Assembly (NCBI GenBank): GCA_038049695.1 | Contig: CP142458.1 | Span: 41,075,501 to 41,139,500, forward strand | Length of the DNA stretch: 64,000 nt | Source of the DNA: Cinnamomum chago | Taxonomy: Eukaryota > Streptophyta > Magnoliopsida > Laurales > Lauraceae | Direction: 5' to 3' | Shown here: one piece after another, positions 34,735 through 63,776 of the stretch | How positions within the stretch are numbered: the stretch's first letter is position 1 | Layout of the letters: every line of letters starts with the position of its first letter | Notes under the pieces: model-generated | Seen by the model: the letters and a program-made list of their open reading frames with translations, nothing else | Database searches by the model: none | Told to the model about the DNA's origin: nothing | Translations under genes and position numbers: made by a program

Positions 34735-34735
34735 C

Positions 34736-39125: not shown

Positions 39126-39560
39126 CACTACAACAAAAATCATTTTTCGCGGCGAATATTTACCGACATTTTGAAAATTTATCACTAAATATTGGTTTTC
39201 GCGACAAAAAATTCATTTCGTCGCCTAAAACGGAAATACAAATGATTTAACGACGATAATTTTTAATCGACGCTAAATATTGTCGCGAAAAGTTTGGCGC
39301 AAAAAAATGGGACTGGCGCCATGAAGAGGTACAAATTTGGCGACGAAATTATTTATTTTGTGACGAGTTTATTTCATCGCTAAATCATCTACATTGTATT
39401 TTATTAAAGAGATTTTGCGACAAAAATATGCCGTCGCAAAATCCCTTTATAATATTCCGCAACTAAATTATTTCGTCGCGGAATGCATAAAATTTGGGAC
39501 GCGCGGACTTTCTTGGCGGTTTATTTTTTGAGAGGTATTGGCGACGAAATGAAATATACT
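39126..39560 (+). repeat. CACTA left terminus and subterminal region
   Basis: Perfect 26-bp terminal repeat (39126-39151) followed by about ten scattered TCGTCGC, GCGACGA and TCGCGA words up to about 39550. In En/Spm such subterminal motifs are binding sites for the element proteins. Here they are less regular than at the right end. Confidence 0.85.
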
Positions 39561-39862
39561 GAAAAGAAGGAACAGAGCACGCAGAACTCTTCCATTTCTT
39601 TCACAGCGGAACGAACACGCAGACATCACCTCCTCTCCCTCTCGATCTTGGCCCCCCCCCTCTCTGTCCATCTCGCAACCCCCTGCGCAGACCCATCTCA
39701 GAGGCAGCCCCCCTCTCCAGTCTCTCTGCTCTTCATCTTTCTCATGCCCACGGACTATCGCCCCTTCTTCCTCCAAGCGCAGACTGCACCACCACCAGCA
39801 GCGCAGAGCCCCATCATCTCTCCCTCTTCTCCCTCCACGCGCAGAACTCATCCCATTCACAG
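39483..39862 (+). other. Possible leader exon of a CACTA transcript
   Basis: A frame open from 39483 runs into a consensus donor (CAG/GTAAGAG at 39862/39863). The sequence is strongly pyrimidine-rich with C-runs and low-complexity Ser/Pro coding, more like a transcribed 5' leader than a domain. Its position just inside the left subterminal region fits the first exon of the transposase transcript, as in En/Spm. No homology is recognised. Confidence 0.4.
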
Positions 39863-42412
39863 GTAAGAGCCTCTCTCCCTCCTCTCTGCATCACCATCGC
39901 ATCCCTCAACACTTCCCCTGCACGTGCACCCTCTCCTCTCATAGAGATCTCCAGATCTCCAAGAAGGAGATATATATCTTTTTTAATTTTTTATTCTGGT
40001 TTTTTCTTTTTGTTGTTTTTGTGGGGTTTTTTTTTGGATGAGAGATTGGTTTTGAGGGATGCTTCATGTTGTAAGATTGATCTCGGATCTGAATAGATTC
40101 AAAGGTCGTCGGTTCTTTCACAATGGTAGATGCTAATGATCTTTCATACATGAGACTGCATATTTTATTTGATTTTTACCTTATCATTTTACATTCACAA
40201 TCGTGCTATTTGTATATGTAGACGTTTGCAGATCATGGGCTTCCTCATTTTGGATTCATTCGGTGTTATGTGATTTTCTTGTAAACTCTGAGCTATGGTG
40301 AAGAATAGATCTTCACTGCTGAAAGAGGAAAATAAGAAGAAAATTTTATATTAGCTTTCTCTTACAAGAAAAGGGCCAATGAAGGTTTTTTTTTTTCTGA
40401 CTGCATCAATCTTCTGAGTTGCTCATGAAGAAGTAAACACCACCTTCAAGAACCCATGACTGAATCAATCTTTTGAGTTCCTTTGCTTTTTCTTTGAATG
40501 AAAAGAAGTCCCTTGAAAACCTTTGCCATGATGATTTTTTCTGACCCAAATCCAGTTAGATTTTATAACCGGGATCCTGGCCTGGATATGGATAGATGTT
40601 CAGTGCCCATTTACTTTTTCTAATTATCTAGAGTTTGAGCCCTGCTGAGGCAGCCACTTTGGTATCCTATTCCTACCAGAGGAAAAAAAGAATAAGCACA
40701 AATTGTTGGCAATTCCATCTTAATTATTTGTTGCCACCTGTAACCAACCCAAGATTCACAAACAATCACTTCAGTTTATCCAACAAAATTAATGTTTGTA
40801 TATAAAAAAGGAAACTCAGCAAAGTGTAAGATATTGGGTGCAAGTGGATATGCATAGTGATGTTCTAGACATAATTTAAAACCAAGAGAATTTACAACAT
40901 AAAGTTTTACCACTGTGATAAGTAGAAAGTTGATAATTCTGCAGGATATCTACATCAATCACAGGCCCTTGATATGGATCCCATGACATGGATCACATGA
41001 TGAGGGTGCAGAATCTGTCTATAGAATCAAAGAACTCATCGTATTGTATTGTTCTTTTTCTTTCCGTTTATTTTTTTTTCTTGTTTTCCCCGGTAGCTGC
41101 CAAATGGAAGCAGTTTCTACCCCATAGGAAGCTCAATGGTGGACCTAGAACAGGTTTTGAACCTATCCTCCCACCCTTAGACAAGGACTTTGTTTGATCA
41201 CTTTCCCAGTGTGACGGGCATAATCAAACCTACTTACTTTTTTGGATTTTTTTTTTCAATCAGCAACAACCTAGCACAAAATGCTATGTTCTTCAAAGTA
41301 TATCATGAACCTGGATGTGGCTTAAAAGACCAATTCCCAGGGCTTACCTGAATGTGAAGTGATCAAAGCGGAAGACTATTATACACACTAAAGCTTTCAA
41401 GATCCAGTAGTAGTCAGCGAGATGATGCCATCATTAGTATTCAAATTTTTGCTTTCATTTGAACAGAACAAATCGATGCTTAGACATGAAAAATCCAGTC
41501 TATTAGCCGTTAATATTCTTTTGCTGACTTTGAGATTGACGAAGTTTCTGAATGTTTCGTTTCTTGATGCCGCTTCTAAACAATGAGCTTGCCAAATATG
41601 GTGCACCCATCGAACAAGAATCATTCTTTCTGCTTTGTGGAATACTTTTCCTTTTTAAGTACCGAGCTGTCTGTGCTTGAACTGTTTTAACCACCAAAAG
41701 ACACAGAAGTGAAAATGAAGATGAGCTACTTGAAACAGTCTAGAAATAAAACAAGATTATGATTAGTAAGAACAGAGAAAATTATACCGACAACAATATC
41801 CATTTACTTGAAAACATTTCCAAAGTGTACACACAAGTACTGCCATAAAACAGAACGTCCTATGATGATTTAAGTAAATCCATCCTACTGTATTATTTCT
41901 TTCCAAATTTTGAATGGGAAAAACTTGCAGAGCATGTGTCCGACTCCATAGTTATAAAAGTTAGGTACCTTAAGTGTTTCCATATGAAAATTCAATGCAC
42001 GAGAAAAATTGCATGTGCATATTGTCGGTGCAAGTCTTCTTTTAAAAAAAAAAAGAAAAAGAGAAATTTATGTTGATGATTCGATAACACAAACATTACA
42101 ATAACACAAAGATAATTATTATTAGTATCCAGTGGGTACACGACATCAGCCATAATAAAATAAGCATACTGGATTGTGAAGCAACTAATGTCCTGGCCAT
42201 ATTTTGGATGGCTTCTACTTTACTCCTGAAGACCTTTGCCATGATGAATTTTTCCTTTCCAATTTATTGTGAAGTTGTATGGAAAATACATAATTTGGTG
42301 CATTCATTTTGTTCCCTGCTTCTTATCCTTCAAAAGGTCTGATCTGACACACTTCTTTGATTCCCATTGTTTGGTCCACACTCTCTAAAGTCCAACAATA
42401 TTGTCTGTGCAG
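39863..42412. other. CACTA internal sequence, mostly unassigned
   Basis: Long T-rich intron-like or captured non-coding DNA. Phrases such as GACCTTTGCCATGATGA occur near 42235 and, similarly, near 40520, suggesting a small internal repeat. Short frames at 40988-41197 (+) and 41397-41697 (-) have no domain I recognise. Confidence 0.4.
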
Positions 42413-42647
42413 TTTTTCTCAGGCAGCGGCTGCAGCTCAAGCTGGTGGTTTTGTGATCCAGATTTTTGTTTGTCGCGTCAGGGTAAGGTTCCTTAATTTA
42501 ATGACCATGCATTTCAAGTGTTCACTGAGAAATGCTGATTGATTGAAATTATGTTGTATAGGACTGGGCTCCCAATCATTCTGGTGATCCTGAGGTAGAA
42601 GCTGCTTGCAGAAGTAGAGAAGATCCTGGATTGGCCCTGCTTGCCTG
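42413..42647 (+). pseudogene. Captured fragment of a transaldolase gene (two exons)
   Basis: Two exon-like blocks with proper splice signals: 42413-42482 (acceptor TGCAG, donor GTAAGG) and 42562-42647 (acceptor TATAG, donor GTGAGT). They encode FSQAAAAAQAGGFVIQIFV and DWAPNHSGDPEVEAA plus EDPGLAL in the order found in plant class 2-type transaldolase of the pentose phosphate pathway, where this segment spans part of the barrel near the active site (conserved family text is SFSQAAAAAQAG, VGRxRDWARNHSGD, EDPGLALV). The intron between them is kept, so capture was from DNA and not from mRNA. Several residues depart from the family consensus and no other exons are seen. Non-functional as an enzyme. 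Confidence 0.85.
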
Positions 42648-45600
42648 GTGAGTTTGGTTCACCATTCATTCTCTCTATGATAATATGTTAGTTTTCTTTT
42701 GTCATAATTTCACTTTAATCTCATTTTGTATCTTAAGTTTATATGAACTGAATTTATTATTGCAAGGACATGCTAATGTTCACACTTATTTGGTCAAAAA
42801 CATTTCATGTTGGATTTCATGTAAATCTTTTTTTGGCCAAAAGCACTTATAAGTAAGATGTGGTGGTAAGGCTCTAAAGCTTAAGTGTGAGTGACTTAGT
42901 GTTATAAAGAAAACTCAACAAAGACACATACTCAAAGTCAAAACTCTTCCAATTGATAGAAGACTCCTCTCATGGGAACCCACCAAGATAAAACAGCCCT
43001 ATAAAATGAATAACACTCCCAAACCAAAGACTGTTTATTTGACACAACTCTAAACATTAATATAGGAAAAATGACTCTCCAATTAAAGACCCTACAACTA
43101 ACCAATCATCCAACCGGATATAAACAGAAATAGCTTAAATAGTCTTTCTTCCATTCTTTTACCTGTTTTCTATATTTTCTTCTTCAAACAATCATTTGCA
43201 GTCATTGTGAAAGCCGCACACACACACACACACGTATATATATATATATTCCAAATAACAAGATGATGAAAAGCTCTTTCCATGCTGTGAGCCTGTGACC
43301 ACTAGTTGGTGGCACCTGTTATGTATGAAAAAGATGACAATAACTACCATGCTTAAACATTAACACCAAACAAAAGTAGAAATAACTTGTGCCCTTGGGC
43401 ACCTAGGTTCCTTTGTTTTAAGTCCCTCTTTACAACAGAGAAATTTCCCTACCAATGAACTTCTCACAAAAGTCAGGAAGTTCCTTCTTTCTGATTCCCT
43501 TGATGAAGAATAAAGAACTCCTGCAGCAAAATCTAGAAGAAATATAAACAGTACACCAAAGAGAAAAACGAACTTCAATATAAGCTGATCTTCCAGCTAA
43601 AAAGAGCAAAACGAGTTTCAGAGCTCGGGTTTTACCCAGAAATGGATGGAGTTTTTTTAATCCGAGATGCACAAACAACCTTATAATCTAATGGTTCAAC
43701 TGACTGTTGTTTCACTTCCTTTTCAATCCTTCAAACAGCTTTCAAACCTTACTACAAAGCCATACTTGGATAAGATATGAACCTTTCAACAGGAAAGCCA
43801 CTGTGGCCCGGTTGGCAAACACGCACCAAATTGCTCAAGTTAGACCCCAAATTTTCAACAGACAAAACTTCTTGGATCATTTGATCTGGGTAATTTTTTT
43901 AAGCGGCCAAAATCACACATTAGAGATCAGAGAGCAAGTTATATATTATCCAGTGTGTGTTGGAATTTTTTTTCTTTTTTTTCCTTTTTTGGGTAGAACC
44001 CTCTCGTAGTCTCTTGATGTTATCCTTTGTTAGTTGAATTCAAGGAACAGCCTGCATTCAATTTCAACAGGAAGGAATAGAACTGTCAGGAGCATTACCC
44101 GCAAAAAACATTAGGAAAATTCCAATTTTGGGTATTTTATCCACCTTTGCATGGGTTGGATAGTCTGGTTGAGAGTATCATGCATGGAGAGTTGTTCACT
44201 GAACCAAAAAGGAAAAAGAAATGGTGGATCTGAACCCTTGCGTCATTATGTGAATGTCACTTGCATTACTGCATCTTCAAAACACTAAGTTCTGCATTGC
44301 AATATAAACTTCAGCTTCCGATGGATAGAATTGACAAGCAGACTGTTTCTTAATGTTTAAAATAAAAAATTACAAAAAATAAAAATTCAATTAAACAGCT
44401 ACATTTCATCAAGATTAAAAATCTACATTACTAAAACATGGAAGATATATGATTCCAATATCTTCCCCTGAAAAACTTTAATGGGCTACTGACTGCACTG
44501 TTCCACCCACGTCAACTATCGCACTTTGTTGCCACCTAAACAAAAATAACATGCTGCATCAGATACAGAATTATAGGTTCCCCTAGATTAACAGAGCTCC
44601 AATTCAACGAGCTAATGAACAAAGAAAAGTTGATTTATCATCAAAGAAGCAACTTAAAGGTAAGGCTTCCTACACGTCTTTTCTATAGAAGATCACAGCA
44701 AGCATCATATGCAAGAGGAAACATTAAGGTGGTGTTAAAGTCTGAAATGTACAGACTGGATAGGGAATCCACCCACTCTGGATAGGAATAGATACTTCCC
44801 TGAAATGGATAAGTAAATTTCTACTTGACATAGACCACATTCGTTAAGCAGGATTACACTAATAGTGAATGGGGATGGAAAAAACAAAACCCACCACATG
44901 CCATGATCTTAATACAAATATCAGATTACAAAATCCCAGAACTGAAAGCAGTCAAGCTGACCACAAGCACACATCAACAAGCCTAGGATGAGAGAAATTC
45001 AAAGATGAAAAGAATAAACAGAAGTTGACATCGGATGTTCTAGAATTTCACCCTCAGAAAGATTATCTTCTGATTATTCTAACCCCGACTGATATATTGC
45101 CCCTTGATTCCATATCATTTGGGTGGAAATGTCTAATACCTGCCATTTTCTCAGACATCCAAAAAGCACTCTAATCTTTAATTCACCACTATTTTTGTTT
45201 TTAGGAGAATAGAAAATAATAACAAAATCATTCATAATGAAGCAATTCTAAACTGACTATTTGGTGATCCATCCTGTTGCCTGCTTGTGAGACTGACATA
45301 TCTTTCATGCCAACAGGCAAGAGGCATTCAAGGTGACCCAAATTACCATTACAAATGTAGGTTCACTTATGGCCAAAAGCCAGTAAGATTCTTTAATTAT
45401 TTGTTTTTGTGAATGGAAAATCATGGGGATTAAGGTTCCCCAGCATTGGCATTCTTGGCCCTTGGGAAAATCCCTAACAAAATGGTGACACACTCACTCT
45501 TTCAAATTATTGGGAGACCACTATTCTAATTTTTATTAACAGCACCATTATCCTAATAGTTTTAGCCCAGAGGGGCCAATGTATGATGGAAATGAAGAGA

Positions 45601-45700
45601 GTAACAGAAAATGAAAACACATTGATAAAGTGCCCCTGCAATAGACCTAAAAGCTATGATATCCAAATACTTCAAAACAGTTTTTTGTGTAAAATGTGCA
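42648..45700. other. CACTA internal sequence, unassigned
   Basis: No domain is recognised in either strand. A dinucleotide repeat lies at 43216-43250. On the minus strand near 44480-44537 a short frame preceded by TTTGTTTAG and ending in a stop could be a last exon, unrecognised. Several 60-100-codon frames on both strands lack support. Confidence 0.4.
43216..43250. repeat. CA/TA microsatellite
   Basis: About eight CA repeats followed by CG and about seven TA repeats. Confidence 0.9.
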
Positions 45701-45786
45701 TAACTTGAGTCCCATCCCTTGCTGGTTCGTGTTTGGCTACTGGTTCTCTTCTTGAAGGCTCTGCATACCACCCATCCTTCTTCCTG
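45690..45786 (-). pseudogene. Captured fragment of a NAC transcription-factor gene
   Basis: On the minus strand an acceptor (TTTTACAG) is followed by a frame EEGWVVCRAFKKRTSSQTRT and GWDSSY. EEGWVVCRAFKKR is the diagnostic last block (subdomain E) of the NAC DNA-binding domain. The RT.QT..GWDSSY continuation is seen in the NST/VND-like subgroup, where the third exon commonly begins at this point. After GWDSSY the frame loses resemblance to NAC proteins. Earlier NAC subdomains are not seen upstream on this strand, so this is a one-exon fragment lying antisense to the transposase. It cannot bind DNA as a NAC protein. Confidence 0.78.
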
Positions 45787-47112
45787 TAAAAGGCTCCAAA
45801 AGAAGAAAGAGAGAGAAAATCTCAGTTAGTGCAGTATAGTTTTCTCTCTCCTTTATATGTTTGTGGAAAGCATTTTTTGCAGAAATGTAAATATTTCCCA
45901 AGGAATCTGATTCCTTTTCTTTTCTGTTCAAGCACCAACATTCTTTGGGGGTTCTCATTTCTTGATTTCTGCAAAAACTAAATTTAGATTTTAGACCCAA
46001 AAAGGTAGAGAACCATCATTGGGTGGTGTAGATAGATTTTGTGGTGTTGATCATTTTGTGGTGTTGATCTCAAGTGGTGCCCACATTTGGATGTTACTTG
46101 TAGATTTTAAAAGTGAGGGCCAGTAGGCTTTGTCTAGGGGACGGGGGCTTTGTTTTTTCCTTTTTCATCTTTACGATTGATCTCATCCAAAAGAAAGACT
46201 TTGTATTGTTCTCATTCATGTGCAAATGTGCTGGGTCCCGCCATAAATGACTTGTGCCCCAAAGATTAGACCAGCACTTTGATATATTTGAATGGACAAT
46301 TAGAAAGGCAATCAAACTTAAAGCTGGGACTTGATGGGAGAATGTCATCCAATCACCCATTAGGGTCACCTAAATAATGTGATTTGTGAGGGCTAGGCTT
46401 CAGGGGTTAGAATGATTTGAAGGAGTTGATAGTTTGCACACCACTAGGTTTAAATATTGCTCTCTTTCCATCTTCTCACTCCACACCCCTTAAGGGTTAA
46501 ACCCACCTTTTGGTTCACATGGCTCCAAGTGCACACCACAAACACGGCCACACTATCCCTATGTGTGGACAGTTCTTACATGGATAAAGTATTGTATTCA
46601 ATTGTCCAAAATTTCAATGTTGATATGAATAAAAAAAATTTGAAGTTTCCACTTGAAAAGCAAACAGAAAAGACAAACACATGAAACTACTCTAAGAAAT
46701 CCATTTAAAATTTCTTGTTCAAGTAAAAAATGGAAGGAAAGAAAAGCAAACTTTTTTGACTTGTCCTCACAACAATACTAAAAGGAAAGCAAAGTGAACT
46801 TAATTACATGTCCTCACAACGGTTTCATATCTGAACCATTCAGATAATGGTTTCCAGATTAGAAGTAAAGACATCATTAGTTAAGATGGAGAAAAATATA
46901 ACAGACTTTTATTGTATTTTGTGATCTTAAGGGCATTGTATTATTAGCATAGATGTTCCTGCAAACAGTTATTCATGCTGTGCATACTCCATATAAATGC
47001 TTTTATGTTCCACTTATTCTGAGGACTGGTTATTTTTATTTCTTTAACACCAATAATGTGTGATTTTTAAGATTAGAATAGAATAAAACTACATTTAACT
47101 GTGATGTTGTAG
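45787..47112. other. CACTA internal sequence, unassigned
   Basis: No domain is recognised. It probably includes captured non-coding DNA from the NAC locus and the intron upstream of the transposase coding exons, which begin after the acceptor GTTGTAG at 47112. Confidence 0.4.
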
Positions 47113-50100
47113 GTCACCAAATACGGACAAGACTTGGATGAATTGCAAGAATAAACTTCGACCGGAGTATAGAAATGGGGTGAGGTCGTTTATTAAATTT
47201 GCCAGTGAACATATGCGTGAGCATAGTAAGATTTGGTGTCCGTGTTTGAGATGCATGAATGTAGAATTGCATCCTTATCCCACCGTCCAAGAACATTTGT
47301 TGTTTAACGGAATCATGACTTCTTATACGGCATGGATACTCCATGGGGAGCCAATGCCTATGAATGTAGAGGGTGTACATGATGATGATTCCGACAATGA
47401 GGGGGGAAGTGTTCATGGTGGAATCTCTGACACAGAAGACAACCCTCATGATGAGTTGCCCGAACTTCTGGAAGACATATACAGGGGGGGTTTTATGGAC
47501 GATGATTTTGGGAATCTTGGATCTGGCCACGATTTTGATAGTGTTGGGCGAGAGAATGTCCAGAACTTTGAAAAATTGTTGAAAGATGTCCAGCGTGCCT
47601 TATATCCAGGTTGCACAAAGTTTACATTGTTGTCATTTGTCATTAAGATGCTGCATGTAAAGGTGTTGAATAACTTGAGCAATAAGGCATTCACATGGTG
47701 ATGATGATAATGAAGGATGTTATACCAGAGAGTGAGATGGTTCCAGATTCCCTTTATGAAGCAAAGAAATTCTTACGTGAACTGGGGTTGGGATACAAAT
47801 CCATTCACGCTTGTAAGAATGATTGCATGCTTTTCAGGAAAGAAAATGAGAATCTTGAAAATTGTCCAGAATGTGGGGAGTTTCGATATAAGCGCAATGA
47901 TGGCAAGGGTAAAAAAATTCTAGTGAAGGTGCTGCGACACCTCCCACTGATCCCAAGGTTACAGAGATTATTTATGTCAAGGAAGACAGCTATAGATATG
48001 CGGTGGCACAAGGAGAAGCTTGTGGATGATGGGGAATTCTCGACGCACCCCGCCGACCGTATTGAGTGGAAGGATTTTGATCGGCAGTATCCTGCATTTG
48101 CCCAGGAGTCCCGCAATGTTAGGTTAGGGCTGGCTACTGATGGGTTCAACCCCTTTGGTAATATGAGCAAGTCCTATAGTATGTGGCCTGTGATACTCAT
48201 GCCTTATAACCTGCCACCCTGGAAGTGTATGAAAGAACCATTTTGTATGATGTCTTTGCTTATTCCTGGACTGCAGGCACCGGGAAAAGAAATCGACGTG
48301 TACATGCAGCCATTAATAGATGAGTTAAAAGAGCTTTGGAATGACGGTGTATTAACTTATGATGCATCCAAAGGAGAGAGTTTCCGAATGCATGCGGCTC
48401 TTATGTGGACCATAAACGACTTTCCAGCATATGGTAACTTGTCGGGATGGAGTACTAAAGGTTATATGGCGTGCCCACTTGTAACAAGGATCCATCATCA
48501 CAAAGGTTGAAAGATAAAATAGGGTACACGGGCGCCCGCCGTTACTTACCTGAGAACCACACATGGCGAAGGAGTAAGCTCTTTAACGGTAAGTCAGAGA
48601 ATTGAACGATTCCAGTGGAATTGTCAGGGGAACAAATATTAGAGCAATTGGATTGCTTGGCGAATGTCAAGTTTGGGAAGCATCCACTGAACAAGAAAAG
48701 AAAGCGCTTGCCGGAGGAATTGAACTGGACAAAGAAAAGCATTTTATTTGAGCTACCTTACTGGAAGAAACTAAAACTCCGACACAACCTTGATGTCATG
48801 CATGTGGAGAAGAATATATGTGAGAACACTCTTGGAACAGTGATGGGCATTGATGGGAAAAATAAGGACACGGAAAAGGCTCATATGGATTTGGAGGGTA
48901 TGAAAATTAGGAAAGAATTACACCTACGTAAGCGTGCTGATGGGTCCTTTGAAAAGCCCCCCGCGATCTACACATTGTCCCTAAAGGAAAGACAGGATTT
49001 CTGTGATTTCTTGAAATCGGTCAGGTTTCCTGATGGTTATGCAGCAAACATTTCGAGGTGCATAAACACCAAGGATGGTAAGGTATTAGGACTAAAAAGT
49101 CATGACTGCCATGTAATTTTACAAAGACTTCTGTCGATAGGAGTACGTGGGCATCTTCCTAAGGATATCTGTACCACATTGTTTGAGCTAGGCAATTTCT
49201 TCGAGCAGTTGTGCTCGAAGAGATTAAGATTGAAGGACTTGGAGGCATTACAGGACCGAGTAGTTTTAATACTATGCAAGATGGAAAAGATTTTTCCACC
49301 AGCATTCTTCGATATTATGGTCCATCTAGCCATTCACTTGCCTCGTGAGGCCATGCTTGCCGGGCCAGTGCAATATCGATGGATGTACCCTATTGAAAGG
49401 TATTAATGCCTAACTTTCATTTAAATTAAAAATTTATCTCTACTGCATTTTCATGCTAACAAAAAATAAAATTCTCTTTTTTTTAAGGCAACTAGGAACT
49501 TTAAAACGGTTTGTTCGCAATCGAGCTCGACCTGAAGGTTCGATTGTTGAGGCTTACATTGTCAAGGAATGCCTTACTTTCTGTTCAATGTATCTACAAG
49601 GGGTAGAAACTGTATTCAATCGGGATGAACGAAATGATGATGGTGGTGAAGGTGGGCTAGGGCTGGGGGTATTCTCACAAGATGTTCGTCCTTTTGGTCA
49701 AATGAGAAATGCACCTGAGGTGTCGCAGAAGGAACGTGATATGGCTCAGTGGTTTATACTGCATAATAGCCCGGAGGTGGCACCTTATCTAGAGTATGTG
49801 ATCATATATTATGCATGAGCATTACTTGTAATAGTGTGTGTTAATGCTTATAATTTATTAATTACCAATGACATGTATTCTAATTAGGGAGCACAAGAAC
49901 CTATTAATGATGCAAAGCAGTTATGATATCGACCAGTGACAACAACGAGAGTTTCCGAAGTGGTTTAAAAAATGGGTAAGATATATATATATAGTTACCT
50001 CATGTATAATCAACTTAAATTGTAGTCATTCATTATGTTATGATTCACTCTATATATTTTGGTCATGCAGATGAATGAATTGCGAAGTCAACAATTAGCA

Positions 50101-50860: not shown

Positions 50861-51058
50861 TTAATGTTTATTTGTATAAGAACCACTACTCTATAATCAT
50901 AGCTAAGATCATTCTTTTTTTTTGTTCGACCTTATTATCTATTTACATGGATATCGGTAATATTACATAACAATTCACTGTATAATGAATTGTTCTTATA
51001 TAATGGTAAGTTAACTAAATTATGTTTTTAGATACTTTTTCTTAAGCAGGTCACATAC

Positions 51059-52248: not shown

Positions 52249-52570
52249 GTAAGTACAATGATAAGTCCTTAAAGGTACCAACTCATCACTGATTTATCTG
52301 TAATTTGTTATAGATATATACATAGGGATTTAAACCCATGCACTCGCACGTGCACACCATGTTACTTACCAACAATGAGCTGCAGTTGGGAACAATTGAA
52401 AGGTTTTTTTGCATAGAAGTAAAAATGATTTTCTTTTTTCCCTTTCAGTAGTGTGGCTGAATTGGCTAGGAATCAATTGAAAGTATTACTTGTGGTATAT
52501 TTTATTTAGAAAGTGATTAATCTATTTATATTGTATGAATCAAGTTCATATAGAGATAGGAAATGAAGCC
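52249..52570. other. CACTA sequence between TNPA-like gene and element E
   Basis: No recognisable exon. Probably intron or 3' part of the TNPA-like gene. Confidence 0.4.
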
Positions 52571-54117
52571 TGTGAGAACCCGACCCCTAATCTCTTGGAT
52601 TAGTGTTGTTTTATTTGTGGATTAGTTCTTTTAGTGGGATTAATATTTGTTGGGTTGAGTTTGTGAGCTAGAATGGGTTTTCTTCTAGTTTTGGGCTTTT
52701 GAGTGCTTTGGTAGCTTGTGGGGCCCTTTGGGGGTTCCCTTTTCGGCTTTGCATTTACTTGTGAGATTTTCCCGATTGGTTTCGTATTGTGTTTTTGGCC
52801 CGTTGCATTCATCTTGAGGAATCCTACAACTTTCATGTTGATCCCGCATCCATTTGAGAACCCGAAACCCGATTTCTTGGCCTTGAGGGCAAAACAGTCA
52901 TTGCACACCAAATCTGTACCCAAAACTTGATATTCCCGAAACCCACGAAACATATACTTTTTGGAAACTAGATATTTTGACGATCATTTCTTCCTTCTTC
53001 GTCGAATCCATCCGAGGTCCCGAATTAGATGATTTCAGCCAAACTAGTCCTTTAAGTTGTGGGACCCAACCTCCTTTGTTAACATAAGAGAACCCACCCC
53101 CTTCATTGCATCCCATTCTCCATTTTTCCAGCACAGCCAGCTGAACCTAGGGTTTTCCCTGGTGTTTCTCTTCTTCTTCTTGCTTCTCCATCTCCAAGCC
53201 ACACCAATAGTTCATCAATCAAGAAATGGAGATCACCAACCTCTTCCTCATCTTGCAAGCTTCACCTTGATACCATTCTTGGAGAAATCTTCCCATATTG
53301 AGACCTTCCTTGAGCTTGTTCTCCTCATTTGAAGGTCATCCAAGTAAGTGTTCTTCTTCATCTTCTAGATTTGTAGTCTTCTAGCCTTAGAGTAGCTCCA
53401 CCTTTATTATTGAAAGGTTTCCTTGTCATTTTATTGTTTAACCCATTTTAGGGTTTGTTTTGGGGGTTTTTGTAGAGATTGTGGATCTTGAGCTTGAGAG
53501 GTGATTAGGAGCTTGATTTGCTTGATTAGAGTCAACGGCAAGTGGATGAATGGATGGTTTGAATGTTATTAAGTTTTATGAGAAAAACCTAAGTTTTATT
53601 ACTTGTTCTTGATAATGTGATATATGTTTCTACACATGCTTCTTGTCATATTTCTAATGATTTCGAAAATGCATATTAATGGTTGTTTCTCTCTTGTTAA
53701 ATCCCTTGGAAATATATGCATTTCATTTGGTCAAAGTTTATTCATATGGTTTTGAAATGAATGGGGTTGGTTTCTCCACCCATGTTTATGTTTACTAGCT
53801 TGCATTGATTTGAAATAGATGCTCATTTAATGAGTTTTGCTAAATCATCTATGGTTAAGGAAATGTGAATCAATAGTCTTGATTTATCTCTAGATTCTTG
53901 GCTCAAATGGACCCTTGTGTATATTGGGGATTCTTCCCTTTGTTTAATGTGAAATGAGAAGAAAGAGGTGTTTGGATTTAATGTTCATTGAAGTTTGATG
54001 GGAGTTTTTATTTTAGTTTGGATGTTTGTTGAAGCAAGGAAAAGCTCACTTTGTATAAGAGTTCAAGTGGAAGAGAAATGAGGGAAAGGATGTAAAAAAA
54101 AACAGCAAAATTTCGGA

Positions 54118-54272
54118 TGCCTGGGAGGTTTCTGCCTCCTGGCGTCCGGACGCCAGGAGACAGAGACCTGGGCGCCCTTTTCGGACGCCAGGAGACAGAG
54201 ACCTGGGCGCCCTTTTCTACTTCCGGGCGTCCAGACGCCGGGTTTCTGGCGTTTGGACGCCGGGAACCTGCA
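54118..54272. repeat. GC-rich palindromic block in element E
   Basis: Contains the 14-base perfect palindrome GGCGTCCGGACGCC (54141-54154) and a 35-bp tandem duplication starting at 54147 and 54182. The block is much richer in GC than its surroundings. Confidence 0.85.
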
Positions 54273-55269
54273 GGAAAAAAAAAAGAGCCATTTTGAAACG
54301 CCTATAACTTTTGATTCCCATATCGGATTTGGAAGTTCTATATACCGTTGGAAAGCTCTTGAAGCAAGGAATCCAATGGTATACTTATCTTAGTGATAAA
54401 AGATTGAAAAGTGAAGTGGATATTTGAACCAATGAAAACTAGTATGTGATTAAGAGTTTTCAACTTGATGTTGTGCATTTGAAAATCGTAAAAGTGCATA
54501 AGGAGCCCGGAATGTCTTCAAACTCAAGGAATACCAAGTAATGACTATAATCGACATACGGGACCCCTATTCACTTAAATAGATCTTGAAATTAATACTT
54601 TTCCCGAAATTGTTATAGTTTATTGCTTCATCTCATTTCCAAGATTTGCATTATATGACTTGTTTTCCCGAAAGCATTTGAAGTTACTCTAGTAACAGTT
54701 AATTGTCCCGAAATGTATTGCCCGATATGAAATGACAATGTGCCCTTGAGCACCCCCGTTTTACCCGTTTAATTACTGTACTTGATTTACTTGCATATGT
54801 CTCGATTGGTTTTTACCTATGAGTCGGCATCACTAAGCTTGGATAACCTTGTCAGTCTGATCCACTGACTTGGAGATCCCCCTCCCGTCCCGCCAGCTGC
54901 AGTTTGGATCCCGATACTCGGTTATTGCCGTGGTCCCGTCCCGATACCCGGTTCGCTACCGTGGTCCCGTTCCCGTATATTTATATTGTATATATGATTT
55001 GCGTTGAGTCTCCTCACCTTGTGTGACTGAGACCAACATCCCGTTGTACTCTTGTCACTTCGGTGATAGAGGACTTAGCTTTTTGTGATCGCCATCTTGC
55101 CAGTTCCCGATCCCTTGGATACCCGACATGTTTTATATTGCTTATATGTTTTCCAATAAATGATTCGTTTCGTTTATGAAAGTTGTTATTTAGAAAGTGT
55201 TAATATTCTCCAAAGTGAATTCAGTTATTGTTATTATGTTGTTTTCTGTTCCTTGTACAAGTACATGTC

Positions 55270-56000
55270 TTAAATGAATGGCGGTTGGGTGAATACCCAT
55301 GCTTTTACATATGCTTCAAACGGTCGATGATTTTACTTGATTTATACGATTACACATGTTTTAAATGGATACCCGTATTGTTAAATACCCATGCTTTTAA
55401 AAATGTTTCAAATGACACTTGTTTTGCCAGATCCCTAGGTTTATACTTGTTTTAAATGAATACCCATATTGTTAAATACCCATGCTTTGAAAAATATTTC
55501 AAATGACACTTGTTTTGCCAGATCCCTAGGTTTATACTTGTTTTAAATGAATACCCGTATTGTTAAATACCCATGCTTTGAAAAATATTTCAAATGACAC
55601 TTGTTTTGCCAGATCCCTAGGTTTATACTTGTTTCAAATGAATATCCGATTTGTTAAATATCCCTGCTTTGAAATATGTTTAAATGAACATTAGTTTTGT
55701 CAGATTTCTTTGGTTACACCTGTTTTAAATGAACACCCGGTTTGTTAAATATCCGTATTTTCACATATGTTTCAAATGGACATTGGTTTTGCCAGACTGC
55801 TATGAATACCTGGTTTGTTGTATAATTATGTTTTTACCTAAGTCTCAAATGAACGTTTGTTTTGTCAAACCACTATATTTATACATGTTTTAGACGAACA
55901 CCCGATTGTCAAATATCTATGATTATAGATGATGTAAATGAACACATGTTTTATTTGATCTTCATGTTTTACCCATGCTTGAAACGAATACATGTTTTGC
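55270..56000 (+). repeat. 91-bp tandem array in element E
   Basis: Units containing TTAAATACCCATGCTTT and GACACTTGTTTTGCCAGATC begin at 55381, 55473, 55563, 55654 and 55745, spaced 90-92 bp, and decay toward 56000. The middle units are nearly identical. Confidence 0.88.
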
Positions 56001-56636
56001 CCGAGGTCCACGATTTTGCACCCGTTTAATTATATGCAGCATTTGATCGAATAGCATGATTTATCATATGTTTAATTCTTCGGTATATTATTATCTTTTC
56101 ATCCACCTGCCATACCGTCGTGTCTGACCCACTACTTTTGGTACTCAGGTTCGGATTTCTTCGTCCCGAATTGAGTGCTTGAGTTGGCTGTGGAGCCATG
56201 TTTTGCAGGTTGTTTTGTCGGCTATGTCATGTAGACATTGAGCTTGACATTGGAGCTACGTCATATTTGGGGTAGTGGTTATAGCTTATTGTTGTATGGC
56301 TTCTCTTAGCCTTTTTCTTGGGATTCTTAATTAATGTATATTGATAATTGTAACTTGAATATATTTGGGAATGTAATATACTGTTACTGTCAGCTCTGTA
56401 ATTTATTGTGATGGGTACTCCAGTCTGATATGATTCTTGATATATTAGCTATATGCTAAAGGTTGAGTGCGACGCGGAATCTGATGGCCACGGACTTCGG
56501 GTAGCAACGCCACAAAAGCTTCCGCAAAATATTCAGAATGTGTTGTCTTCACACACGTGGATCTTGGGAGAAAAATATAACTATCCTTAATCCCATTCCC
56601 GCCCCCGAGGTTTCGGTTCGGGGGCGTGACAAAGCC

Positions 56637-57202
56637 ACTTTCATCATTAATATCCATCTTTTGTACACTTTCTGTAACTTCACAGCAGCTTCATGTTTGG
56701 GACTGCTTGGTTCAGCTGTGGGTGGAATTGGGTTTGCATCTATTAAGGTGTTTGACACAGGCACCTGGTTTTCACATTCTCTGCCCTTGAAGCTGGGGTT
56801 CGGATATGTATGGGCATGTGTTTCTATATGCAGGCAAGCTTGGATATTACACAGCCTGGCCTGAGCGGTGGCGCTCTGCCCAAACCTACTCTTATTAGGG
56901 CACCTTTTTTTTTTTTTAGAAACTATTAGAGGCAGATTTGGTATTGGAAATACATAACATACTTGGGCCCAACCCAAGTCCTTTGTGGTTGGTCAAACTA
57001 TTTCTCCAATTGTCATTATATTTGTTATTTTCTTTGAGTACCAAATAAGGCAAATGATGGCCTTTATTACTGGAGATTGGGCCCCCTGTTTAGAAACGTA
57101 AGGCTTAAGTTCTTTTACAGAACTTTGAGTGTTTTTATTTTATTTTATTTTATTTTTTGCTTTAAGGTGAAAATTGTATTAGTAGAGAAACAGAGAAGAG
57201 GA
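56637..57202 (+). other. CACTA internal sequence, possible captured exon
   Basis: A frame after element E reads LGLLGSAVGGIGFASIKVF and LPLKLGFGYVWACVSI, hydrophobic and membrane-like, up to 56864. I do not recognise it and the splice context is unclear. The rest is AT-rich. Confidence 0.35.
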
Positions 57203-57784
57203 AACATGGAAATGCATTCTTACCTTGTTAACTTGATTGCACTCCTCAAAACCTTCCTAATATGGAAACATTTATATCTTTGAACTCTTCAATACCCTTT
57301 CCTTTTTTCTTGCTGTCCTCTTACTTCTTCATTTCCTTTGTCTTTGGAATTTCTCCTTGCCATTGTTCATATTTTATTTATTACTTCTCACTCATGTGTG
57401 AATACTATCTACAGATCGCAACTTTCTTCTCTTAAAGCATGAAGGAATCGATGGATATGTTTTTGCTCTTTTTGTGGGTGTCCATCGGTTACTGCTGTTA
57501 CTGAAGGTGGATTTTCTACTGTTCATAAGCCTCATTTTCTTAGTGGATTTGGTCTTTTGGATTCTAAGGTATTGAACCCTTTTTGCATTTTCGCATGCAT
57601 TAAGAGATTGAGTGGTTTTAGTTAACTTTTCTTCTGTGTAAAATGGGTTGGTAGAGAGGTCATCATTTTCTTTGAGATTTCTGTTATTAGATCAAAGTAA
57701 ACTCTCTTGATGCTTTTTTTATTTTTTTATGTTGTGTTGTTTGGTGTTTGGATTTCTGGGTTCTTTTTTACTTTGTGGGCGTTG
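57203..57784 (+). repeat. 582-bp direct duplication, copy 1
   Basis: Nearly identical to 61892-62474, with about nine substitutions and two T-run length differences. It includes an exon-like block (about 57418-57569, acceptor TCTACAG, donor AAG/GTA) open in one frame in both copies (KHEGIDGYVFALFVGVHR), which I do not recognise. Confidence 0.93.
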
Positions 57785-58063
57785 ACTATTTGATAGTCAT
57801 TTTCTTGAGATGGAGACTTTGCTTGGATTTGATTACTAGGAGAGGGCTGAGTATTCATTTCCCATCTCCCTTATATTCAATTTTCCAAGAGGAGACTATT
57901 TGATGGTCGTTTTCTAATATTCACCCGTGTTTCTTCAATTTTAATCATATATACAAGTCTCAAAATTACCAGGATGTCAATTACATCAAACAAATGGCCC
58001 AAAGTGAATGTCACATCCAAAATGGACTATATACTATACACCTTTTTTTTTTTATTCTTGCAG
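57785..58063. other. CACTA internal sequence
   Basis: Intron-like T-rich DNA ending in the polypyrimidine tract and acceptor TTCTTGCAG (58063) of the next captured exon. Confidence 0.5.
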
Positions 58064-61000
58064 GGTAGGACTTTTCCCTTATACTTGATGTCCAGGTATC
58101 CATTTATGAGGAAGGCTTTAGCAATTCTGGAGAGGTTTGTGAAGGTGCCAGAAATGGGTTGGAAGAGTGGGGTATTGGGTGTCAGCTTGGAAGGAAAACC
58201 ACTGGCCCTGTTGTCGCGACCCCGGACCGGGAATCCCAATCCGGGATCGGGACATTAGTGTGTAATGATAATTGGTGATGATTATCTACCTCCACAATAT
58301 AGAACTTATTCAATTTCCCACAGGTGTCCGCGGTGAGGATATCACAACCTTGCATGAACATTTCTTTGAGTGCGGAAGCGTGTAGCAAATCAAATAGTAG
58401 GACTATCTCTAGTCATGCAAGCATTAATATCAAATGTCAAAACTGTATCAGAAAGAGCAATGATCTATAGCATGTTTCCCAAAGGTTGTTAAAGTTAGAC
58501 AAAAATCATTTAGTTACATTCTCCAAAAATTAGAGGCCAACAAAGGCCAATATTACAAAATAATAACCCAAAGAATAGTTAACAAGTCCTCCCCAAAATG
58601 TTACGCCTCTTGGCAACCCGATGTCTACATGACATCGTCAGCACGCCACTCAACTAGAGGCTGCAGCCCACCTACCGCTTCCTCCGGCTCCTCCTCAAGG
58701 AAACCGGCAACGGGACCTGAGTACCAAAGCAAAGGGGTCAGACACGACGGTCTGGCAAGAGAGTGAGAAGATGCAACAACATAAAATAGATGAAATATCT
58801 CGAAAAGCATGGAAATCTGTTTAAGCAAAAACTCTCATGAATAGATAAATCATTTGCTAGAAAACATGTAAACAAGATAAAACTCATAGGGTATCCAAGG
58901 AATCAGGAACAAGCAAGATGGCGACCACACGAAGCTAAGTCCTCTATCACTAAGGTGATAGAGTAATAACTAGGCCCTGGTCTCAGTCACTCGAGGTGAG
59001 GAGAAACAGGGGATCTCATATAAATACATATGCATATACAATACTATACATGACCACGGTAGCGAGCCGGGCATCGGGGACCACAGTAGCAATCTGCGGT
59101 ATCGGGACAAGACCACGGTAATGACCGGGCATCGGGATCCAAACTGCAGCTGGCGGGACAAGAGGGGGATCTCCAAGTCAGTGGATCAAACCAACGAGGT
59201 TATCCAAGCTTAGTGGTGCCGACTCATAGGTCAAATACAATCGAGACAATGCAAGTAAATCAAGTACAAGTATATAATCAAACGGCCAAGACGGGGGTGC
59301 TCAAGGGCACACTGACATATCATGTGGTGCAATGCACTTCGGGTCAAGTAACCATTTCAAGTGTACAACAATGCTTTCGGGGAAAACAAGTCATGTAATG
59401 TAAAATCTTGGAAATGAAGAATATAATGAACTATACCAATCCGGGAAAGATAATGATTTTAAGATCTATTTGAGTGAATAGGGGTCCCGTATGTCGATTA
59501 TTGAAATGACTTGGTACTCCTTGAGTTTGAAGACATTCCGGGCTCCTTATGCACTTTTACACTTTTCAAAACTTCGAATGACATCCTTGTGATATGGTTT
59601 CTTTCTCAAATGGCCTCATACAATGCCTAGTGAATCTCCTTTGATCGATAAAGTTCAACGCTCGAACGAACCGGAGAGTTCGTTCGAGCGGGGAGCTTTT
59701 CGAAATCTGGAGAATTTCGGTTACCTTGCAGTCAGCTGGCGGTTAGCCGCCGCTGGGACGGGCGGCTAGCCGCTGGCTGACCGCGCAGCTGACCGCGGCT
59801 GGGCTGCAGAAATGCAGCTCACTGGAAAGCTGACCGCCAATGCGCGGTTACCTGGCGGTTAGCCGCCGATGGGTTCCGCGGTTAGCCGCTGGCTAACCGT
59901 GAGGCTGGCCGCGTTTTCAGGGGGAAATTGATGCTCTCTGGAAAAGGCACCGTGACATTTCGGTTACCTGGCGGTTAGCCGCCAGTCACCAGACGGCTAG
60001 CCGCCGGCTGACCGCAGGCTGACCGCCAGTGCGGGAAACACCCACTGTGTGCAGATTTGAGTTACTTTCCTCCTCAAAACCATCCTCCTCACTTTCACTT
60101 AATCCTTGACACAAAACTGAGCTAAAAGCTCCTCCAATGCATCTATTTTCACTTCTCCCAATACTCCAATATTTGTTCATTCATCCCTTCCTCCATCCAC
60201 ATCAAATCCAATACAAGAAAGAAGGAAACCATATCACCATAGAGTACATTGGGTATAAACAAGAAAAGGATTAAATGCCATTCACTACTACACTTATAAG
60301 TCATAATTGCAATACCATAAATGCACTACTAAAGCTCCATTATGAACATTTATGTCAAACTAATGTAATAAATAGACATGAGTGAAAAACACCAAAAATC
60401 ATGGAAAGCTTATAAAGATCAAAACCTATACTTGCCTTGTGTCTCCTAACAATGCAATAAAGCCCTAATACTCTTCCAAGCAAGGAATCCAAGCTATGAA
60501 CAAAAATCCCCAAAAACAAACCCTAAAAGAGTCAAACCAATGAAATAGAAAGGGGAACTTTACAATAATGGAAATGAAGCTTCTCAAGGGCTAGAGGAAC
60601 ACTAATCTAGGAGATGGGAAGAATCACTTACTTGGGTGGCCTTCAAATGAAGAGAACTAGTTCAAAGAGGATCTCTAGATTGATGGATTTCTCCAAAAAT
60701 GGTGTCAAGATGAAGCTTGTGAGATGAGGAAGAAGAAGATGATCTCCATTTCTAGCTTGGTGCAAGTTTGGGTGTGGATTGGAGATGAAGAAACAAGAAG
60801 ATGAAGAAAAGTTACCAAAAGCAAACCCTAGACTCCTTTGTGCTGGAAAAAGGGAATGAAAGGAAAGGGTTCTCCTTAAATAGCAAATGGGAATGGGTCC
60901 CACTACTAAAGACACTTGCTTGGCTGAAATCATCTAATTCGGAACCTCGGATGGATTCGACGAAGAAGGAAGAAATGATCGTCGAAATATCTAGTTTCCA

Positions 61001-61517
61001 AAAAGTATATGTTTCGCGAGTTTCGGGAATCTCAAGTTTTGGGTACAGATTCGGTGTGAAATGACTGTTTTGCCCTCAAGGCCAAGAATTCGGGTTTCGG
61101 GGTCTCAAACGAAAACGGGATCAACATAAAAGTTGTTGGGATTAACAATACCAATAAAACGAGATTAAAACCATGAATGTAAAAATCTCCGATAAATCCT
61201 CAAACATATGCAATGTCAAGAAAGGGAACCCCCAAAGGGCCCTACTGACACAAAGCCAATCAAAATCCCCAAACTATAACAGAAGCTATTCCAAACCCAA
61301 CTTAGCCAAAAACTCTAATCAAGCTTAGCACTAACACGCAACTTAATTAGCACTAATCGGGTTCACTCGGGTCGGGGTCTTACACCTGTACACAGACCCT
61401 GTTCTGTCTGGTGTTACAAGTTGTGTTAAAATAGGGAGGCATCTCTACTTTGGCTCCCTGGTAAAGGACTATGTCAGCAGACTTTATCTGGCCATACACC
61501 CTGCACGTACCATGTGA
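58064..61517 (+). pseudogene. Captured fragment resembling a strictosidine synthase-like gene, last exon, split by element F
   Basis: An exon begins after TTCTTGCAG at 58063 and reads YLMSRYPFMRKALAILERF, KVPEMGWKSG and GVSLEGKPLAL up to the insertion of solo LTR F at 58212. Beyond F and its target duplication (from 61390) the same frame reads YTDPVLSGVTSCVKIG and HLYFGSLVKDYVSRLYL and reaches a stop codon at 61515-61517. The pattern (hydrophobic helix, G-V-LEGKP-A-Y-DP, SGV-S-VKIG-HLY-GSLV-DY) resembles the C-terminal propeller blades of plant strictosidine synthase-like proteins. These are mostly secreted or vacuolar and only a few have known substrates. Only the last exon is recognisable. 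The family call rests on memory of the motif pattern and is moderate. Confidence 0.55.
58212..61384 (-). mobile_element. Long solo LTR F inside the captured exon
   Basis: 3173 bp. The plus strand runs TGTCGCGACCCCGGACC...GGGTCGGGGTCTTACA, inverted-matching ends with a perfect target duplication CCTGT (58207-58211 and 61385-61389). In reverse orientation it carries the D/E phrase (GTCAGACACGACGG, about 58738-58751), GCGGAAGC near 58372 and the GTGCCGACTCA module of E (about 59215). A GC-rich block at 59655-60040 is full of GGCTAGCC and GGTTAGCC words, including the palindrome GCGGCTAGCCGC (59762-59773). No coding region. Confidence 0.88.
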
Positions 61518-61891
61518 TGAACGACTTGGATTTAGTTGAATAATCTATATGGATCTGTTAAAGCATTTTCCAGTTCTGTTTTATAGTAACTGAAGGCCCG
61601 CTTTGATCAATGAAAAGTGTTGGAATGAATGGAGAGGACATTGGAAATGTGTTCTTACTGATATTTTAAAGAAAATGGGAAGTTGTGTGGATCAAGCTAT
61701 GTTGTGGCTTGTTGGGCCCAATCTGAAACCTATGATTCAGGCTTAGACGTGGCCTGTGGAGCCTAGCCTATAAGGCAATTACCAATTCAGGCACCATGCA
61801 TGGTTATATTTGTATACATGATCAATTCAATAGTGTATATTGCTATTCTTAAAATAATTTGAGCCGATTGCCACATAAGAGGGTTAGGTTT
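61518..61891 (+). other. Probable 3' flank of the captured gene fragment
   Basis: AT-rich sequence after the stop codon at 61515. It looks like 3' untranslated or flanking DNA carried along with the captured exon. Confidence 0.4.
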
Positions 61892-62474
61892 AACATGGAA
61901 ATGCATTCTTACCTTGTTAACTTGATTGCACTCCTCAAAACCTTCCTAATATGGAAACATTTATATCTTTGAACTCTTCAATACCCTTTCCTTTTTTCTT
62001 GCTGTCCTCTTACTTCTTCATTTCCTTTGTCTTTGGAATTTCTCCTTGCCATTGTTCATATTTTATTTATTACTTCTCACTCATGTGTGAATGCTATCTA
62101 CAGATCGCAGCTTTCTTCTCTTGAAGCATGAAGGAATCGATGGATATGTTTTTGCTCTTTTTGTGGGTGTCCATCGGTTACTGCTGTTACTGAAGGTGGA
62201 TTTTCTACTGTTCATAAGCCTCATTTTCTTAGTGGATTTGGTCTTTTGGATTCTAAGGTACTGAACTCTTTTTGCATTTTCGCATGCATTAAGAGATTGC
62301 GTGGTTTAGTTAACTTTTCTTCTGTGTAAAATGGGTTGGTAGAGAGGCCATCATTTTCTCTGAGATTTCTATTATTAGATCAAAGTAAACTCTCTTGATG
62401 CTTTTTTTTTATTTTTTTATGTTGTGTTGTTTGGTGTTTGGATTTCTGGGTTCTTTTTTACTTTGTGGGCGTTG
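61892..62474 (+). repeat. 582-bp direct duplication, copy 2
   Basis: Partner of 57203-57784 at about 98.5% identity. The exon-like frame remains open in this copy too. Confidence 0.93.
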
Positions 62475-63361
62475 CATTAGTATAACTTCCATTTCACCAT
62501 AGACTTCACATACTCATATTAATTGTTAGGATAGTGATTCAGGTTTGTGATCTTGAATCAACTTGTTTAGGCTCAAGTGCACTTTTATTTTATAATTTTC
62601 TCAGGATTTTATTTTGTATACTTACTTTGCTTTTGATTCCCATGTTTAATTCCAAACAATTTTTTTTTTTTACCACAGGTTGGGACTGAAGATCAATGTA
62701 ATAGAGGCCAATTGCTTGAACATCTTTTTGTTTTTCATAAAAATATTGTACTTACACTATTTTGGATGCTACATTTTTACTTGAATCAGTAACAACAACG
62801 TTGCTAAACTTGTGGGTCGTATTTAATAGTTATATGTTTCCTAATATGTTGAAAGGGCATGCATTGTACATTTTTCATTAGTTAAATGAGCATACTTTAC
62901 TGTACATTTTGTTTGAGTTGAATGGCCATGTTTTATTGTACATTTTATTTTTGTTGAATGGGAAGGTTTTATTATACATTTTATTTTAGTTGAATGAGCA
63001 AGTTTTATTACATTCAGCGTAAAGGAGGTTTTTGAGGTAGCATGCGGTAATTTAAAAAAATATATATTATTTTTAGCGACGAATTTTATTTGTCTCCTAA
63101 AAGGAATAAATATATCCTCGACGTATATAATTTGTCGCGTAAGAGAAATTGTGGCAAGGTTAAATATTGGGCGAATTGTCTACAAACTATGCGCGACAAA
63201 ACTAATTCGTCACCTATTATAACTTATGGCAATTCATGCACTATTTGGCGACAATAAAGTTTTGTTGGTAAAAAACTATAATTCAGCGACGACTCCATTT
63301 TGTCGCCTAATTCCTTTTTCACCATTTTTTATCCATTTTCTCGTAATGAATCATGGACATT
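62475..63361 (+). other. CACTA right-hand internal region
   Basis: No gene is seen. It includes the 36-bp repeats at 62888-63015, and subterminal TCGTCGC/GCGACGA words begin at about 63075. Confidence 0.5.
62888..63015. repeat. 36-bp tandem repeat, 3.5 units
   Basis: Units at 62888-62923, 62924-62959, 62960-62995 and a partial one from 62996. Each contains TTTTATT(G/A)TACATTTT and ends AGTTGAAT or TGTTGAAT. Confidence 0.85.
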
Positions 63362-63384
63362 TGGCGACAAAAAATATCATTTTT

Positions 63385-63643
63385 GCCGACATAATGTGTT
63401 GTTGTAGAAAATTGATATTTGGCGACGCTAATGTGTTGTCGCAGAAAAATGATATTTAGCGACGATAATGTGTTGTCGCAGAAAATTGATATTTAGCGAC
63501 GATAATATGTTGTCGCAGAAAATTGATATTTAGCGACGATAATGTGTTGTCGTGGAAAATTGATGTTTAGCGACGATAATGTGTTGTTGCAAAAAATGGA
63601 TATTTAGCGACGATTAATTGTGATCGTCGGCAAAAACAATCAC
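63385..63643 (+). repeat. 37-bp subterminal array of the CACTA element
   Basis: Units start at 63385, 63422, 63459, 63496, 63533, 63570 and (partial) 63607, each exactly 37 bp apart. The core GCGACGATAATGTGTTGTCGC is a 5-bp dyad (GCGAC...GTCGC) around an 11-base spacer. By analogy with the En/Spm subterminal motif bound by TNPA, these are probably binding sites for the TNPA-like product. Confidence 0.88.
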
Positions 63644-63739
63644 CGACACATAATGGGGGACGAACGGGTGACAAAAATGGTTTCGTCGCAGAATATATCT
63701 TGCGATGATTTTGTGATTTTCCGCGACATATATTTGCAT

Positions 63740-63765
63740 CGCGAAAAATGATTTTTGTTGTAGTG
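63740..63765 (-). repeat. CACTA right terminal inverted repeat
   Basis: 26 bp, a perfect reverse complement of 39126-39151, followed by target duplication ACT. Confidence 0.95.
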
Positions 63766-63776
63766 ACTGGGCATCT

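Follow-up and report, generated by a model that had tools for sequence, protein, structure and literature searches.

The window analyzed here is a 64,000-nucleotide stretch of DNA from Cinnamomum chago (C8:41075501-41139500 of a 1.06-Gb genome in 14 contigs), and its positions 39126-63765 are occupied by a large transposon. With a probability of about 85%, we consider this to be a single complete representative of a mosaic, gene-collecting family of En/Spm (CACTA) elements, enlarged by two solo long terminal repeats (LTRs), in which host DNA would have been captured through break repair and whose movement would depend on proteins acting in trans. The members of the family share their termini and some of them a tnp2 region, and their interiors appear to differ as pieces of host DNA, introns included, were added, shuffled and amplified. 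An earlier note on this DNA had read the stretch as one complete CACTA unit holding DNA from several host loci, and the present analysis agrees. Gene-capturing CACTA families are already known (Tpn1, Pack-CACTA, those of wheat chromosome 3B and of grapevine); the contribution of the present case is that one capture has been reconstructed at base level in a member with a transposase, together with a duplication footprint. A limited literature search for CACTA capture with flanking repeats returned no description of it, which is no proof of absence. How cut-and-paste transposons acquire gene pieces is still argued, and in this element one capture can be read at the level of single bases, with its donor gene, both breakpoints, copies that lack the piece and the duplication that records it. 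The coordinates of all features are collected in Table 1.

Ends and Target Site of the Element

The terminal inverted repeats start with CACTA, are identical at 26/26 bases and are flanked on either side by ACT, the target site duplication (TSD), so that the exact ends and ACT duplication of the earlier note are confirmed. The terminal 26-mer is found in 170 exact copies in the 1.06 Gb (84 forward and 86 reverse) as compared to 0 for the reversed control, and thus represents the end of a repeat family rather than a chance occurrence. The motif GCGACGA is present 8 times in the 1.1 kb of the ends as against once in the 23.5 kb of the interior. The CACTA inverted termini, the 3-bp TSD, a Tnp2-type transposase and these subterminal repeat motifs together place the element among the CACTA (En/Spm) transposons.

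The left and right flanks of the element were formerly adjacent, as seen in paralogous empty sites. The query for these consisted of the two flanks joined with the element cut out, so that base 126 of the query marks the junction; scores were obtained for 40 of 2312 first-look candidates in the genome. As the genome searches score only the best candidates, all copy counts from DNA queries given here are lower bounds. The junction is crossed from the left flank by 25 of the 40 scored matches, by 6–11 bases, with their ends at bases 132–137. The remaining matches among these best 40 of 2312 comprise the window's own flanks (two), matches to the left side only (two, one of which stops 2 bases past the junction) and matches to the right side only (11). 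The last start at bases 133–142, indicating that a different repeat begins there. The joined flanks make up a repeat, and a related copy of it within the window itself (35897-36178, 72%) aligns 8 bases across the join. None of the 40 scored matches covers both flanks at length.

The Family across the Genome

Copies of the family were delimited by pairing facing termini at most 36 kb apart among 100 listed of the 170 terminus places. Of the 22 pairs obtained, all were fetched except a 35-kb pair on C5. Both exact termini are given by selection in the 21 fetched copies, and a perfect 3-bp TSD is present in 19 of them. The fetched copies are 4.7 to 23.8 kb long (median 11.3 kb with the window element included) and have in common at least 0.4 kb on the left and at least about 1 kb on the right, with interiors that differ in a mosaic fashion. 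The block 40100-46140 of the window is common to a copy at C2:16.65 Mb, with 96–98% identity, and parts of it occur in many others. The check proposed in the earlier note, namely a search for several copies sharing the captured segments, is therefore positive for this block, but the strictosidine-synthase-like piece described below has, for its 3′ half, no second transposon copy in the genome search. A further relative, with parts of 40100-46140 and of the transposase module, lies on the same contig (C8:40.47-40.49 Mb) at a distance of about 0.63 Mb.

Host-gene exons in the sister copies were sought by running Pfam on 97 of their 203 open reading frames (ORFs) of at least 88 codons, with the terminal, transposase and Copia ORFs and some shorter ones left out. 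Eleven Pfam families were matched at E<=0.001; some pairs of these probably represent one gene, and one of the families, MFS_1, falls below its own cut-off. Five ORFs were confirmed singly, namely those for a ubiquitin-conjugating enzyme, a GYF domain, a peptidase M76, an EF-Tu-type GTPase and a tubulin, while five others checked singly in the same way gave no match. The combination of shared termini with host-gene exons in sister copies marks this as a gene-collecting family and not as one aberrant element.

The Transposase Module

The earlier note had assigned to the element both genes expected of an autonomous CACTA transposon. The Tnp2 region is indeed present with four Pfam families, but it is not intact: the PF02992 match (Pfam, E 7.8e-79) is split over two frames, continuing in the other frame at 48459-48602, and relative to the copy c5_22.7 there are 1-base gaps in the window tnp2 at 47693 and 48474. 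The modules of the two copies are identical at 6287 of 6422 aligned bases; c5_22.7 has gaps of its own at other places, and neither copy is open throughout as assembled. The second gene, of the TnpA or Ptta type, is represented by a weak match to Transposase_24 in one of 61 ORFs (E 0.0052). The assembled element thus lacks the uninterrupted transposase genes of an autonomous CACTA transposon. Because the tnp2 frame is broken as assembled, we infer that the element, if mobile, is moved by the proteins of other copies.

By translated search, tnp2 is found in one of the 21 fetched copies (c5_22.7). A genome search with the module 46141-52570 (28 scored of 870 first-look candidates) recovered all or part of it at all 28 scored loci including the window. 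These are 94–98% identical, except for one 337-bp row at 87%. At 14 scored loci besides the window at least 5 kb of the module is spanned in one match, and some others have only a part of it, without tnp2. The family also lends itself to asking if genes are collected as frequently by the members with a transposase as by those without one.

A Gene Piece Captured from C9

The capture that is readable at base level concerns a strictosidine-synthase-like gene, a fragment of which on the plus strand the earlier note had called probable. It is now traced to a gene on C9, where its donor is a single contiguous 929-bp stretch (C9:70519730-70520233 and the upstream part) without the solo LTR that interrupts it in the element. 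The identity to the donor is 97%, intron included (416/428 in the 5′ part and 492/507 in the 3′ part), with 26 substitutions in about 934 bases (2.8%). A tandem paralog 16 kb from the donor has a Str_synth domain (2.3e-25), and its last exon reads alike. A genome search with the 3′ half gave nine matches: the window, the donor, four in the same C9 cluster, one on C3, and two of 81 bp at 88%, of which one is on C4 and the other inside the copy c1_58.9. There is no other copy of the 3′ half among these nine. Within our reading of the element, the C9 piece would be its newest capture.

The stretch in c1_58.9 (L009) occupies element bases 2245-2325 and is 88% identical to window 61479-61559. It is perhaps an independent capture from the same C9 gene cluster.

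Flanking Duplications and a Proposed Capture Step

The C9 piece sits between two copies, A and B, of a 582-bp sequence that is the family's own. In c5_2.4 and c5_33.9, which are without the C9 piece, this sequence is present once and runs straight into the right end. The homology at the two junctions of the piece amounts to 1 bp and 0 bp. In a ranking that covers copy B, its closest match besides itself among the best 40 of 95 candidates is copy A (994 bits, followed by 969). When A and B are compared with four other copies, three sites are common to A and B only, and seven of the nine differences between the two are private to one or the other. Their divergence is 1.5%, as against 2.8% between piece and donor, so that the duplication may be as old as the capture or may differ from it in age. 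The captured segment 40542-42202 also lies between direct repeats, in this case of 28 bp, and the copy L055, which is without that segment, has the 28-bp sequence once.

We posit that a staggered break occurred inside the element and that both overhangs were filled in, which would duplicate 582 bp of element DNA, with host DNA, i.e., the C9 piece, used as filler between the two filled-in ends. The duplications that flank two captured pieces and the near-absence of homology at the C9 junctions suggest such break repair with filler as the capture step, and tandem duplication by the repair of adjacent nicks is reported to be common in rice (PMC7971508). The same source offers a difficulty, as 582 bp is long for patch repair, which in rice makes up 70% of insertions at first but 5% by the time a length of 200 bp is reached. 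Moreover, there are only two cases, and no flanking duplication accompanies the segment 43387-45680. We therefore give staggered-break or template-switch repair within one element an even chance. The wider proposition that host DNA enters these transposons as filler in staggered-break repair, with each piece flanked by a direct duplication, is offered tentatively, as somewhat less probable than not. If it is true, capture would arise incidentally from break repair rather than from the fusion of neighboring insertions, and flanking duplications would date and order the captures.

The published Pack-CACTA model (PMC8903248; PMC13317346) instead has neighboring elements fuse: two CACTA copies beside the C9 gene piece would have lost their inner ends, their outer ends would have moved as a unit and the overlap retained between them would be the 582-bp repeat. 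The observed order of element, host DNA and element is exactly what this model predicts. However, copy B is nearer to A than to the other scored copies (best 40 of 95), such that fusion would need sister insertions; a comparison of the fetched 2 kb of the C9 donor with window 57001-62700 matched only the piece; and the second case has just a 28-bp repeat. Hence, we regard fusion as unlikely, though a serious contender, and in our judgment break repair with filler is favored over it by about 5 to 3. The 170 exact termini and the many mosaic interiors in this one genome represent enough events for a statistical test between fusion and break repair.

Several observations weigh against the overall reading that combines a complete family member with break repair and mobilization in trans. 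Both duplications are equally compatible with the fusion of neighboring elements at their ends. Two of the nine differences between A and B are shared with other copies, for which a pure duplication needs homoplasy or conversion. The segment without a flanking duplication, 43387-45680, lies where neighboring copies differ by other changes. The 3′ half of the C9 piece is in no other copy found, so that the piece may not have moved since its capture. Finally, the frame breaks in tnp2 may be assembly errors.

That the two ends belong to different insertions, with ordinary host DNA as the interior, is very improbable: apart from the unusual length nothing was found in its support, and it is contradicted by the matching TSD, the paralogous empty sites and the presence of interior blocks, contiguous and in the same order, at C2:16.64-16.65 Mb. 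A still weaker proposal, suggested by the two long direct repeats 4.1 kb apart, is that the 582-bp repeats are the LTRs of a retrotransposon spanning 57203-62474; we rejected it since at the scored places the repeat belongs to the module of the family itself and has neither TG..CA ends nor a TSD, and since the interior consists of a gene piece and a solo LTR.

When all 22 elements were scanned for additional repeats flanking captures, 10 rows resulted: the two known from the window, two read as nested LTR pairs, five short repeats of 35–43 bp in c3_3.3 and c6_59.0, and one more pair. In this last case, in c3_3.3 (L026), a perfect 43-bp direct repeat (element bases 3422-3464/3757-3799) surrounds 292 bp that are in no other fetched copy, and this pair is a possible further capture with a flanking duplication. 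Direct repeats of 1,875 bp in c6_59.0 (L042-L043), 100% identical and 4 kb apart, probably belong to an LTR retrotransposon that entered this sister CACTA element very recently.

Table 1. Features of the transposon and its target site, in window coordinates
Feature	Position	Strand	Evidence
TSD ACT, left copy	39123..39125	.	sequence comparison of ends
Left 26-bp terminal inverted repeat	39126..39151	+	170 exact genome copies, control 0
Left terminal module	39126..40513	.	first 430 bp align in 21/21 fetched copies
28-bp element repeat, left copy, beside 40542-42202	40514..40541	+	repeat scan
Captured segment (b)	40542..42202	.	lone outside match C3:129225302-129226966, 97.5%
28-bp element repeat, right copy	42227..42254	+	26/28 identical; single in L055
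Captured segment (c)	43387..45680	.	outside match C4:7375174-7377436, 95%; left breakpoint read in L054
NAC-like exon tail, motif EEGWVVCRAFKK	45699..45790	-	80% match to C3:16343705-16343799
Transposase module	46141..52570	+	97.9% of aligned bases identical in c5_22.7
tnp2-type transposase gene pieces, frame broken	47105..50418	+	PF13963, PF02992, PF13960, PF13952 in order
Nested solo LTR 1, 4,061 bp, TG..CA, TSD AAGCC	52571..56631	-	site empty in c5_22.7
Exon-like piece (IQ-motif protein-like), end of transposase module	56632..56796	-	weak; Pfam IQ below cut-off
582-bp element sequence, first copy (A)	57203..57784	+	repeat and copy comparison
Captured strictosidine-synthase-like piece, 5′ part (intron and start of last exon)	57784..58211	+	donor alignment
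Nested solo LTR 2, 3,173 bp, TG..CA, TSD CCTGT	58212..61384	+	absent from C9 donor gene
Captured strictosidine-synthase-like piece, 3′ part (rest of last exon and 3′ flank)	61385..61891	+	donor alignment
582-bp element sequence, second copy (B)	61892..62474	+	9 substitutions in 581 vs A
Right terminal module, common to family	62475..63765	.	copy alignments
37-bp subterminal tandem array, 6.2 copies	63387..63614	.	tandem repeat scan and motif count
Right 26-bp terminal inverted repeat	63740..63765	-	26/26 bp identical to left end
TSD ACT, right copy	63766..63768	.	sequence comparison and paralogous empty sites

Other Putatively Captured Segments

Two further segments have counterparts outside the family. 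The first, 40542-42202, is whole or partial in several other copies at 94–98% identity, and its match at C3:129.2 Mb has no exact terminus within 1.6 Mb among the listed terminus places. The second, 43387-45680, is 95% identical overall to its counterpart at C4:7.375 Mb and 98.6% identical over the portion that was read; among the same places, none on C4 lies below 27.9 Mb. We infer for both a passage from host to element.

The remaining gene names are less secure. The earlier note had reported a NAC factor on the minus strand, and an exon tail of about 27 codons is present at 45699-45790, but neither Pfam nor PDB gave a NAC match for it; Pfam on the ORF of this exon returned only a sub-threshold F-actin-capping match, and PDB no match at all. 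We presume it to be NAC-like from its motif (EEGWVVCRAFKK), and QEEGWVVCRAFKKR is read likewise in a genomic relative at C3:16343705. Similarly, 56632-56796 presumably derives from an IQ-motif protein, a tentative label taken from a motif, with Pfam IQ values of 0.052–0.11 that are below the cut-off. Both exons are present in other copies. A transaldolase fragment on the plus strand, also reported earlier, was not recovered at this sensitivity: the Pfam scans of 77 and 61 ORFs (E<=0.05; ORFs of at least 42 codons outside the two solo LTRs) contain no transaldolase match, and PF00923 over the whole genome matches twice, each time at the same C6 location, and nowhere in the window.

Nested Solo LTRs and the Rest of the Window

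The 24.6 kb given for the unit in the earlier note is its true span, but 4,061 and 3,173 bp of it are a pair of overlooked solo LTRs and do not belong to the transposon sequence. Both have TG..CA ends with a 5-bp duplication and an empty site in a relative. Lying in opposite orientations, they share two long blocks with a similarity of 77–79%, which explains the large inverted repeats in the element; a nested foldback element, considered as the source of these repeats, was accordingly rejected. Once both solo LTRs and the TSDs that go with them are subtracted, the element measures 17,396 bp. Thus, two later LTR retrotransposons, shrunk to solo LTRs, would have enlarged it from about 17.4 kb to 24.6 kb.

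Outside the CACTA element, the window contains a Copia-type LTR retrotransposon on the minus strand (6862-12165; LTRs of about 270 bp, 96% identical, with ATGTC on either side) and a Gypsy-type one, also on the minus strand (24037-35403; LTRs 95% identical, with TTAGG on either side), which includes a 54-bp tandem array at 28289-28708. A lone inverted copy at 19002-19684, 84–86% like the Gypsy LTRs, is perhaps a solo LTR. A long direct repeat, 88% identical, is formed by 4065-5000 and 14769-15704.

Comparison with Known Systems

The element resembles the soybean Tgmt* (20.5 kb) in being a very large CACTA transposon with a tnp2-type transposase; Tgmt* is described as putatively autonomous, and its main text has no words beginning with "host gene" or "captur" (PMC2613891). 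Large-scale CACTA-mediated gene capture with exon shuffling has been reported from wheat chromosome 3B, where many CACTA families are involved, as opposed to the one family examined here (PMC4290129).

As in Pack-CACTA elements, gene pieces captured from DNA lie between CACTA termini and are amplified with the element (PMC8903248). Pieces of host coding genes, as in the packFinder definition of Pack-TYPE elements, are represented here by the 929 bp of the C9 gene at 97% identity. However, the Pack-TYPE rule reserves that name for elements without a transposase match, classing the others as autonomous or as derivatives of autonomous elements, and the tnp2 match inside the present element sets it apart from that class (PMC8903248). 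The earlier note had contrasted this multi-locus, transposase-bearing element with the small Pack-CACTA elements usually reported; the contrast is weaker than stated, given the transposase module at 28 scored loci and the precedents in grapevine and morning glory (PMC2528002; PMC5105172). The former, Cactavine-5, is a transposase-bearing CACTA element in which a host gene piece likewise lies downstream of the transposase ORF, comprising there a coding part and the 3′ UTR. One gene piece is described for it, as compared to segments with outside matches on three contigs here (PMC2528002).

In morning glory (Ipomoea nil), Tpn1 is a large CACTA family that captures genes, with 339 copies of 161 bp to 40.6 kb in a host genome of 750 Mb (PMC5105172). 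It differs in its terminal repeat of 28 bp as against 26 bp here, a comparison of lengths and not of sequences, and has two TnpA and five TnpD coding copies, where the present family has all or part of the transposase module at 28 scored loci (PMC5105172). Nevertheless, the two families are alike in their conserved termini, interiors replaced by host genic DNA, widely varying size and hundreds of copies, and equally in the 3-bp TSD, the subterminal repeats and the presence of some transposase-bearing members (PMC5105172).

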